Assembly: GCA_947499255.1 (NCBI GenBank)
Contig: CANMNF010000001.1
Span: 1,116,001-1,180,000, forward strand
Source: an uncultured Sphingomonadaceae bacterium
Lineage (GTDB): Bacteria > Pseudomonadota > Alphaproteobacteria > Sphingomonadales > Sphingomonadaceae
Length of the DNA stretch: 64,000 nucleotides
Direction: 5' to 3'
How positions within the stretch are numbered: the stretch's first letter is position 1; each line of letters starts with the position of its first letter. A program made the position numbers and the translations under genes. This document shows positions 13,562 through 15,741 of the stretch, in pieces. A model generated the notes under the pieces. It was given only the letters and a program-made list of their open reading frames with translations. It was not told where the DNA came from and did no database searches.

Positions 13562-14142
13562 AGAGGTTTGCCTTCGGGCTTGGTATCATATTGGGCGCAG
13601 GCGCACTGGCATCCTGCGGTGCGCCCGCGCCAGAACCTACGCCAGCGCCGGAGCCAGCACCCACGCCGCCGCCAGCAGCAGCGCCGGTGACCGCGCCAGA
13701 GCCTGGGCCAGCGCCTCCCCCGGTGATCACAGATCGCATGGATGATTGGCAGGACCGCGCATTGACGCTGGGTGATTGGCGTTATCTGGCTGAGACTGGT
13801 GAAACATTGGCGATCTTTGCAGCAGACCCGCTTTCAAGAGAGCCCCAATTGATCATCGCCTGCAATCTGGAAACGCGCGAAGTCGGCATTGTCCGGCCAA
13901 GCGAGGCAGGTGTGCCGGTGGATATGTTCATCCGCACCGAAACGGCGGACCGGATGCTATCCGCCACCCCGTTTGATGGGCGCCAACCCATCGTGGTGGG
14001 CAAAGTCGACGCACTTGACCGATTGCTGGACGCGATGGCTTTTTCCAATGGCCGCATCGCTGTGTTGGTGGGCGGGGAAGCGCCGTTGATCGTCCCCGCA
14101 TGGCCCGAAATCACGCGCGTGGTCGAGGATTGCCGAGTTTAG
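13552..14142 (+). CDS. Putative lipoprotein with Pro/Ala-rich linker
   Basis: MQLKRFAFGLGIILGAGALASCGAPAPEPTPAPEPAPTPPPAAAPVTAPEPGPAPPP; overlaps previous gene. Confidence 0.7.
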   Translation: MQLKRFAFGLGIILGAGALASCGAPAPEPTPAPEPAPTPPPAAAPVTAPEPGPAPPPVITDRMDDWQDRALTLGDWRYLAETGETLAIFAADPLSREPQLIIACNLETREVGIVRPSEAGVPVDMFIRTETADRMLSATPFDGRQPIVVGKVDALDRLLDAMAFSNGRIAVLVGGEAPLIVPAWPEITRVVEDCRV

Positions 14143-14203
14143 GGAATATTTGTTTTGCGTTGTGTGTGTTGAGTTGTTTGTTTTACGCTCGGGAGTGTTT
14201 GTT

Positions 14204-14231
14204 TTGCGCTCGCCCATCCGGGCGAGCGCAA
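14204..14231. terminator. Strong hairpin (12-bp perfect stem, 4-nt loop), probable terminator
   Basis: ttgcgctcgccc-atcc-gggcgagcgcaa; A-run just downstream on + (cgcaaaaaaacg), T-rich on upstream side. Confidence 0.8.
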
Positions 14232-14381
14232 CGCAAAAAAACGAAGCGCAGATTTTGACTGTGAAAAAGAAAAAATCAAGACTTGTCTTATGCCTCTATT
14301 CGATTCACAAAGGGGTCAAGGCCAGCGGTTATCGCGGTCTTCGCCCGCTAATGATTATGCGTGGTGTTGGCTTATTAGCGC

Positions 14382-14396
14382 GAAAGGAGGTGATCC
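14382..14396 (+). promoter_or_regulatory. Extended Shine-Dalgarno complementary to the 16S 3' tail (GAAAGGAGGTGATCC)
   Basis: 15-nt match to the complement of GGATCACCTCCTTTC. Confidence 0.75.
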
Positions 14397-14397
14397 G

Positions 14398-14454
14398 ATG
14401 TCTCATGGTTCAGCAAGGGGGTCGGTTAAGTTCCACGCGAGGTATTATCTTTAG
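14398..14454 (+). CDS. Candidate 18-aa leader peptide MSHGSARGSVKFHARYYL
   Basis: ATG 7 nt after GGAGG; TAG at 14452-14454. Confidence 0.4.
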   Translation: MSHGSARGSVKFHARYYL

Positions 14455-14473
14455 GCATTTGCCATTCAGGTAA
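14405..14473 (+). CDS. Alternative 22-aa overlapping ORF MVQQGGRLSSTRGIIFRHLPFR
   Basis: ATG 14 nt after GGAGG in a different frame; TAA at 14471-14473. Confidence 0.3.
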   Translation: MVQQGGRLSSTRGIIFRHLPFR

Positions 14474-14511
14474 AGACTTCGTGGGCGGCACTTCCGGCCG
14501 CTGACCATGAC

Positions 14512-14545
14512 AAGGGCCGCTTCGCTTTTACGCGAGGTGGCCCTT
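14512..14545 (+). terminator. Rho-independent terminator/attenuator hairpin upstream of ilvE
   Basis: aagggccgcttcgc-ttttac-gcgaggtggccctt, ~14-bp stem (with wobbles), followed by ctcatttt. Confidence 0.8.
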
Positions 14546-14555
14546 CTCATTTTGG

Positions 14556-14585
14556 GGCCAATACCACAAAGGCCAATACCACAAA
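14556..14585. repeat. 15-bp perfect tandem duplication (ggccaataccacaaa x2)
   Basis: Direct reading. Confidence 0.95.
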
Positions 14586-14643
14586 GGCTTGCCACCCTCG
14601 TCCACGCCAACTAATTGCTCCTGCGCAAGGAGACATCACGATA

Positions 14644-15741
14644 ATGGCCACCACGCCGACACTCGAAATTGCGAGCCAGCCGCATCCCGCCCCAACGCCT
14701 GATGCGGACCGGGTGGCAGCGATTGCTGATCCCGGTTTTGGGCAGACTTTCACCGATCACATGGTCACGATTGATTATGATGAAGGCAAAGGCTGGCACA
14801 GCGCACAACTTTGTGCACGTGCACCTCTTGCGCTCGATCCTGCTGCATCTGTGCTGCATTATGCGCAGGAAATTTTCGAAGGCATGAAGGCCTATAAAAT
14901 GGAAGATGGCGCGATGGCGCTGTTCCGGCCTGATCGCAATGCGCAGCGTTTCAACGAAAGCGCGCGCCGCCTCGCCATGCCCGAATTGCCCGAAGATCTG
15001 TTTATCGAAGCAATCCGGCAAAGCGTGCTGGCGGATAGAGACTGGTTCCCAACCGTTGATGGCGGCTCGCTTTATATCCGCCCTTTTATGATCGCGACAG
15101 AGCCATTCCTCGGCGTGCGTCCGGCCAGGCAATATAAGTTCATCACCTTTCTCACTGCGGTTGGCGGATATTTCAAGGCAGGCGCGCCTGCGGTCAGCAT
15201 TTGGGTGTCCAACGATTATACCCGCGCAGCACCAGGCGGCACTGGTGCGGCGAAATGCGGCGGCAATTATGCGGCCAGCCTTGTGCCTTTGGGCGAAGGC
15301 ATGGCGAAGGGTCATGATCAGGTGGTGTTCCTCGATGCTGTGGAGCGCAAATGGATTGAGGAATTGGGCGGCATGAACCTGTTTTATGTCTTCGATGATG
15401 GCTCCATGATCACCCCGCCTTTAAGCGGCACGATCCTGCCCGGCATTACGCGTGACAGCCTGATCACGCTGGCCCGTGAAGAAGGGCTGGATGTACGCGA
15501 GGAACGCTATTCCATTGATCAATGGGAAGCGGATGCGACATCGGGCCGCTTGATGGAAACCTTTGCATGCGGCACCGCTGCGGTGGTGACGCCTGTTGGC
15601 CATGTGGCAGGCGAAGGCATTGGTTTTGATATCGGCTCTGGCGGGCCGGGTCAGCTAACCACAAACCTGCGCGAAAAGCTGGTCGCGATCCAGCGCGGCA
15701 AAGCTGAAGATCGGCATGGCTGGGTCATGCGGTTGGACTAA
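14644..15741 (+). CDS. ilvE: Branched-chain amino acid aminotransferase
   Basis: HYAQEIFEGMKAYKMEDGAMALFRPDRNAQRFNESARRLAMP...GTGAAKCGGNYAAS...EELGGMNLFYV. Confidence 0.96.
   Translation: MATTPTLEIASQPHPAPTPDADRVAAIADPGFGQTFTDHMVTIDYDEGKGWHSAQLCARAPLALDPAASVLHYAQEIFEGMKAYKMEDGAMALFRPDRNAQRFNESARRLAMPELPEDLFIEAIRQSVLADRDWFPTVDGGSLYIRPFMIATEPFLGVRPARQYKFITFLTAVGGYFKAGAPAVSIWVSNDYTRAAPGGTGAAKCGGNYAASLVPLGEGMAKGHDQVVFLDAVERKWIEELGGMNLFYVFDDGSMITPPLSGTILPGITRDSLITLAREEGLDVREERYSIDQWEADATSGRLMETFACGTAAVVTPVGHVAGEGIGFDIGSGGPGQLTTNLREKLVAIQRGKAEDRHGWVMRLD

Follow-up and report, generated by a model that had tools for sequence, protein, structure and literature searches.

The caulobacter small RNA CC2171 (Rfam RF01867), reportedly first described by Landt in 2008, is an intergenic RNA of about 160-190 nt with GAAAGGAGGUGAUCC followed by RUGUCUCAU on its 5′ side and a long helix which closes directly before a terminator hairpin; no function was found for it in a search of the literature. 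A match to CC2171 has been recorded as MH_s33, with sequencing coordinates, in Mesorhizobium huakuii (PMC5596092). Most ncRNAs of C. crescentus have been described as intergenic, and such regions as not translated, in a study that does not name CC2171 (PMC4117421).

Comparable devices are known from other RNAs. In the alpha operon (uS4) and rpsO (uS15) mRNAs of E. coli a pseudoknot covers the translation start, leaves the Shine-Dalgarno sequence accessible to the 30S subunit and regulates a ribosomal-protein gene in cis. The amino-acid attenuators of the ilv, trp and his leaders consist of a short ORF followed by a terminator, and dual-function sRNAs are structured RNAs carrying a translated-looking ORF, the classical ones conserving either the peptide or a separate seed region. 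We know of no anti-Shine-Dalgarno sequestration in Proteobacteria of the kind found in Bacteroidota. The flavobacterial rpsU mRNA, which encodes bS21, uses for its regulation an extended Shine-Dalgarno sequence that is complementary to the 16S tail over an unusual length (PMC10931766).

Within the window, i.e. the whole stretch of 64,000 nt of contig CANMNF010000001.1 analysed here, the features collected in Table 1 form an element which shares with CC2171 the 5′ motif, the long helix closing directly before the terminator hairpin, the intergenic location and the length. All features that a first-pass annotation had placed in this region were found at their positions. Differences from CC2171 are observed in helix P1 (CAUGG/CCAUG in the element, CAUUG/CAAUG in CC2171), in the partner strand of helix S1, which is near, at codons 7-10, and in the additional 5′ hairpin of the window's family. 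With a permissive threshold RF01867 matches positions 14374-14543 over the whole length of the model (positions 1-159) with 40.1 bits (E 4e-7), which falls below the gathering score of 75 bits; at the curated threshold Rfam has no match to the element. Because the 75-bit threshold is missed, the element is regarded as a divergent homologue of CC2171 and not as a formal member. Our own model R1, derived from 33 other loci with the window left out, matches with 45 bits (E 3.2e-10, positions 1-175) and finds a single significant copy in the window's genome. 6S RNA was considered as well and rejected, as RF00013 has no match in the window and the 6S-like RNA of this genome lies elsewhere (C1:853444).

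Table 1. Features of the CC2171-like element and its upstream region (coordinates of the window)
Feature	Position	Strand	Sequence or location	Support
Conserved upstream block, candidate promoter/regulator region	14278..14310	+	CAAGACTTG...CGATTCACAAA	Columns >90% conserved in 51 Erythrobacteraceae/Novosphingobium-like loci
5′ hairpin	14318..14341	+	AAGGCC...GGTCTT	Confined to the window's family
15-nt complement of the 16S rRNA 3′ tail	14382..14396	+	GAAAGGAGGTGATCC	Invariant in 30 family loci (blastn)
Helix S1, 5′ strand	14395..14403	+	CCGAT.TCT	Equivalent helix covaries across the class; no variation in the window's family
ORF1, 18 codons	14398..14454	+	MSHGSARGSVKFHARYYL	Stop conserved at codon 18/19
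Helix P1, 5′ strand	14404..14414	+	CATGGT.CAGC; codons 3-6, in the loop of S1	Own versus swapped pairing energy
Helix S1, 3′ strand	14417..14425	+	GGGGGTCGG; codons 7-10	Class-wide covariation of the equivalent helix
Internal hairpin H2	14436..14483	+	Contains the stop codon of ORF1	Compensatory pairs in 37 sequences, e.g. columns 66-73 with 87-94
Internal hairpin H3	14484..14502	+	GGGCGGC...GGCCGCT	CG/UA exchange at columns 113-123
Helix P1, 3′ strand	14500..14509	+	GCTGACCATG; directly before the terminator	Own versus swapped pairing energy
Intrinsic terminator	14512..14553	+	14-bp stem and CTCATTTT tract	Many both-side changes in the family alignment

By blastn the element is detected in 56 of 101 related genomes, nearly always in one copy per genome, and several other genera of the family share its core (14380-14433) at 93-96% identity. 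Class-wide searches recovered relatives in 66/289 and 73/290 alphaproteobacterial genomes, while the pattern AAGGAGGTGRTCYNDTG occurs in 81 of 290 such genomes versus 3 for a reversed-pattern control; about a quarter of the Alphaproteobacteria sampled carry the element. When 249 genomes from across the phylum were sampled, matches occurred in 34, every one of them alphaproteobacterial (34/34), with zero matches in the roughly 180 genomes of other classes. The named hosts include Novosphingobium, Sphingomonas, Erythrobacter, Bosea, Methylobacterium, Microvirga, Azospirillum, Brevundimonas and Roseomonas-like bacteria. These comparisons establish the kinship of the element, which by family and anatomy is well supported as the branch of the alphaproteobacterial CC2171 lineage that is found in sphingomonads. 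Genome G110, from the window's family, contains two copies, at C1:805104 (L049) and C1:2922049, one of the MSHC type and the other of the MSHG type. A plasmid or phage origin was rejected, the element of the window having no match in such records; the L102 relative is present, unannotated, in four alphaproteobacterial plasmid records. On contig CALQFM020000040.1 (locus L124), which belongs to a bin labelled Candidatus Kuenenia, the element and its upstream region are identical to those of the alphaproteobacterial locus L044, and this contig is probably mis-binned.

The 15-nt Shine-Dalgarno sequence had been recognized in the first-pass annotation as complementary to the 16S rRNA tail, and this is borne out by the same genome: the antisense of its own 16S 3′ end equals GAAAGGAGGTGATCC over all 15 nt, and on the opposite strand the 16S gene has the sequence TTAGAAAGGAGGTGATCCAGCC. 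Only two exact copies of the 14-mer AAAGGAGGTGATCC exist in the 2.96-Mb genome, one here and one in the 16S gene, and the 11-mer GGAGGTGATCC is likewise restricted to these two places. The sequence GCGAAAGGAGGTGATCCGATGTCTCATGG is unchanged in 30/30 loci read, a set obtained by blastn and not selected by the motif. A covariance model retrieved 20 divergent loci; the full 15 nt are retained in 16 of them, a count which is only partly independent because the model itself weighs the motif; the other four have one change each, and three of these preserve the pairing via G-U. Loci L064-L183 were fetched by the motif itself and are unsuitable for judging its conservation. A simple antisense fragment of the 16S gene was rejected, as the homology ends after 15 nt and the ORF, the helices and the terminator come next. 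Divergent loci (L230, L232, L236, L237, L238, L240, L244, L056) have in common an ORF-internal GGAGCAACCU(U/C)C-like motif (peptide EQP) that resembles the 16S tail and could either pair with the Shine-Dalgarno sequence or represent a conserved peptide motif with synonymous changes.

The predicted fold of the element (-81.8 kcal/mol) is 4.8 SD better than that of shuffled sequences. In helix S1, GAUCC and a dinucleotide running into the start codon pair with an ORF-internal stretch, the 5′ strand extending from the 3′ end of the 16S complement across the start codon. In most orders the partner is CUGGAUC, near codons 15-17, and in sphingomonads GGUCGG at codons 7-10, with [GT]TCGG retained in about 84/89 sphingomonad-type loci. 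Dinucleotide and partner change together (AG with CT, GG with CC, CG with CG): 62 loci have a match between the dinucleotide preceding TG and its partner, whereas 2000 label shuffles gave 24 on average and 37 at most, kinship not being removed. In the window's family S1 never varies; its support there is its presence only, the covariation evidence coming from other orders. For helix P1 the loci's own strands pair with -11.05 kcal/mol versus -7.66 kcal/mol for swapped strands over 172 loci, and with -8.8 versus -4.9 kcal/mol in the most divergent 20 loci, where the variants CATTG/CAATG, CATGG/CCATG, CATCG/CGATG and ATGAGATT/AATCTCAT are found. In alignment A3 the fraction of paired cells is 92.4% for S1 and 91.7% for P1 and drops to 20-45% when the strands are slid, alignment A1 being similar; 21 cells are changed on both sides versus 5.5 in shuffles, with the kinship between sequences not removed. 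Since the loop of S1 contains the 5′ strand of P1, whose partner strand follows only after S1, the two helices constitute a pseudoknot, which is well supported by these comparisons and is predicted to cover the start codon and to leave GAAAGGAGGU free. For the family alignment RNAalifold, which cannot represent pseudoknots, returned S1 but not P1.

Hairpin H3 is compatible with the outer part of P1 and competes with its inner CAGC/GCTG; owing to these shared bases the two may alternate. The strong hairpin followed by a U-rich run, as described earlier, is present and covaries in the family, and 14512-14545 is the sole terminator-like site found in 14140-14660. At the other end no match to a consensus sigma-70 promoter was detected in the window. 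In other orders a TTG-(N16-18)-10 promoter ends 19-22 nt before the motif, with a TTG -35 candidate in 70/90 loci versus about 29 expected from shuffles. The RNA of these orders therefore should start shortly before the 16S complement and, equipped with its own promoter and terminator, form a self-contained transcription unit. In the window's family the extra 5′ hairpin, which displays paired changes in the alignment (AAGGCC/AAGACC/GAGGCC with GGCCTT/GGTCTT/GGTCCTC), and the conserved upstream block suggest an earlier 5′ end. The sequence data support a free-standing small-RNA gene at 14374-14553, possibly extending from about 14310. This coincides with the fallback of the first-pass annotation, which had allowed for a separate small gene or sRNA with its end at the hairpin; the element is now recognizable as a divergent CC2171 homologue that has a terminator and, in other orders, a promoter of its own. 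Within the conserved upstream block CAAGACTTG (14278-14286) is a palindrome and a possible regulator site. Further upstream, after a lipoprotein-like gene, a perfect hairpin GCTCGCCCATCCGGGCGAGC at 14208-14227 occurs once in the window, and in some relatives similar TCCGGG hairpins are located close to the element.

The 18-residue ORF described behind the 16S complement (ORF1) is confirmed, and its boundaries are under selection. It starts with ATG in 89/89 sphingomonad-type loci and stops at codon 18 or 19 in 82 of these 89, using TAA, TGA and TAG; the position of the stop is constant across 41 different sequence contexts, the stops of the other two frames being scattered. In the other main type (70 loci) ORF1 starts with GTG or ATG and mostly comprises 20-26 codons. 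In Azospirillum-type genomes and one other family (L104, L145, L234, L241) the same Shine-Dalgarno and start region opens an ORF of 55-59 codons with a signal-peptide-like N-terminus, which replaces the ORF of 18-26 codons. The Shine-Dalgarno sequence, the ORF1 start and stop and the terminator are all conserved among relatives. This does not extend to the second overlapping ORF: the ATG at 14405 does open ORF2 of 22 codons, as had been noted, but the frame is not conserved, ending after 3 to 70 codons in relatives, and ORF2 was rejected as a gene.

Because the start and stop of ORF1 are conserved and the peptide largely is not, docking and translation, rather than the leader peptide, appear to be the selected output. 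Classical dual-function sRNAs conserve peptide or seed, whereas this element conserves its ORF boundaries and the 16S complement. Shine-Dalgarno sequences longer than six nucleotides reduce translation in E. coli (PMC2176067), strong Shine-Dalgarno pairing is believed to delay translocation at its first step (PMC4611024), and trapping of 30S subunits at such start-codon pseudoknots is established (PMC10931766). Together these reports lead us to consider an RNA for which docking on ribosomes and its own translation both belong to the mechanism. Our preferred, still tentative reading is hence a ribosome-docking RNA whose start codon would be buried in the pseudoknot and opened by the 16S tail, selection acting on translation and not on the peptide. 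We infer a toehold displacement in the following order: the free GAAAGGAGGU would serve as a toehold catching the 30S subunit; the rest of the 16S tail (GGAUC) would then displace the GAUCC strand from S1 and thereby free the start codon; finally, the ribosome would translate the ORF of 18-25 codons through P1 and stop inside the RNA. The physiological output may be to titrate or report free 30S subunits, or to set the fold and lifetime of the RNA. The predicted duplex with 16S rRNA amounts to -14.0 kcal/mol for the core only and to -28.5 kcal/mol for the whole tail, from which it follows that the tail could displace S1 and open the start. A further-reaching and doubtful extension is that of a class of alphaproteobacterial stand-alone RNAs measuring or titrating free 30S subunits via a maximal 16S-tail complement, rRNA strand displacement and a mini-ORF translated only as mechanism.

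Unlikely, and first among the alternatives, is a mini-mRNA for a functional micropeptide, in which the strong Shine-Dalgarno sequence would ensure high expression and the structures would stabilise the mRNA or tune its translation. The conserved start and stop are in line with this, as are the Met-Ser kept in divergent loci with four different Ser codons and the long ORF with its signal-peptide-like N-terminus in some Azospirillum-type loci. Outside the sphingomonads frame 0 has a modest BLOSUM excess of +1.9 to +3.2, which leaves room for a functional peptide there. In the sphingomonads themselves, however, purifying selection on the amino acids of ORF1 was looked for in the substitutions and none was seen: synonymous changes are fewer than expected (885 observed vs 1185), and the third codon position is the least variable one. 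Moreover, the peptides of different orders are barely similar beyond MSH, and NCBIfam contains no family for the ORF1 peptide, with one chance-level match to RhoL (E 0.13).

The combination of a pseudoknot over the start codon with an over-strong Shine-Dalgarno sequence would also fit an entrapment switch, in which binding of a ligand or ribosomal protein to the pseudoknot would keep the 30S subunit in a non-productive complex, as happens with uS4 and uS15 on their mRNAs. The trapping established for such pseudoknots, cited above, lends this idea some plausibility. In the alpha operon and rpsO, however, a ribosomal-protein gene is regulated in cis, while here an ORF of 18-25 codons is all that follows; likewise the rpsU mRNA encodes bS21, whereas the element encodes no ribosomal protein. 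As neither a ribosomal-protein gene nor any constant gene is situated downstream, and the conserved neighbour clusters of the element contain no ribosomal-protein gene, only the mini-ORF could be regulated, and we rate such a switch as quite improbable.

Hardly to be expected, too, is a trans-acting sponge or base-pairing sRNA whose GGAGG captures sRNAs with anti-Shine-Dalgarno loops (suhB/ar14 type) or CCUCC stretches of mRNAs. Three suhB-type (RF00519) RNAs are encoded in the window's genome (G000; C3:417268, C2:706510 and C1:992002), two of them above the cut-off, and in Caulobacter CrfA has been shown experimentally to sponge four sibling sRNAs, SisA-D (PMC12559287). The suhB copies nevertheless lack CCTCC in the matched stretch and are the weaker partners, the best of them reaching about -20 kcal/mol where the 16S tail reaches -28.8 kcal/mol. 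Nor would a sponge account for the start codon, the stop or the conservation of the GAAA and UGAUCC ends.

The main reading of the first-pass annotation, a translation-coupled attenuator or leader peptide controlling ilvE, has become very improbable. In the window and most close relatives ilvE is indeed the gene that follows in the same orientation, but its distance varies from 217 to about 1400 nt in the window's family, or the gene is absent from the fetched flank. Beyond this family the linkage is lost and the element is conserved without ilvE, next to unrelated and mutually different neighbours; it is thus independent of its neighbouring genes. Like the ilv, trp and his attenuators the element has a short ORF followed by a terminator; unlike them it possesses no regulatory codon run, no alternative antiterminator that could be found and no fixed downstream gene. 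A run of Ile/Leu/Val codons is missing in ORF1 and its homologues, as had already been remarked for the window's peptides. The terminator is a separate hairpin past P1, which abuts it without overlap, no antiterminator overlapping the terminator was found, and neither RNAalifold nor the MFE folds show an alternative; the non-conservation of ORF2 likewise speaks against the attenuator. Between the terminator and ilvE, at 14559-14588, two tandem copies of a 15-nt unit are found (AATACCACAAAGGCC / AATACCACAAAGGCT). Strong Shine-Dalgarno sequences occur in many genes, but an ordinary small gene with such a sequence by chance is practically eliminated by the 11-mer being unique outside the 16S gene, the class-wide conservation and the covariation.

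Annotation of the locus as an ilvE leader would be as misleading as its annotation as non-coding. An RNA family long known by name only turns out to be spread through the Alphaproteobacteria with the longest possible Shine-Dalgarno sequence, and its start codon is apparently kept in a pseudoknot without a gene to regulate in cis. If the docking on ribosomes holds true, the RNA would constitute a direct link between the supply of free ribosomes and gene control.
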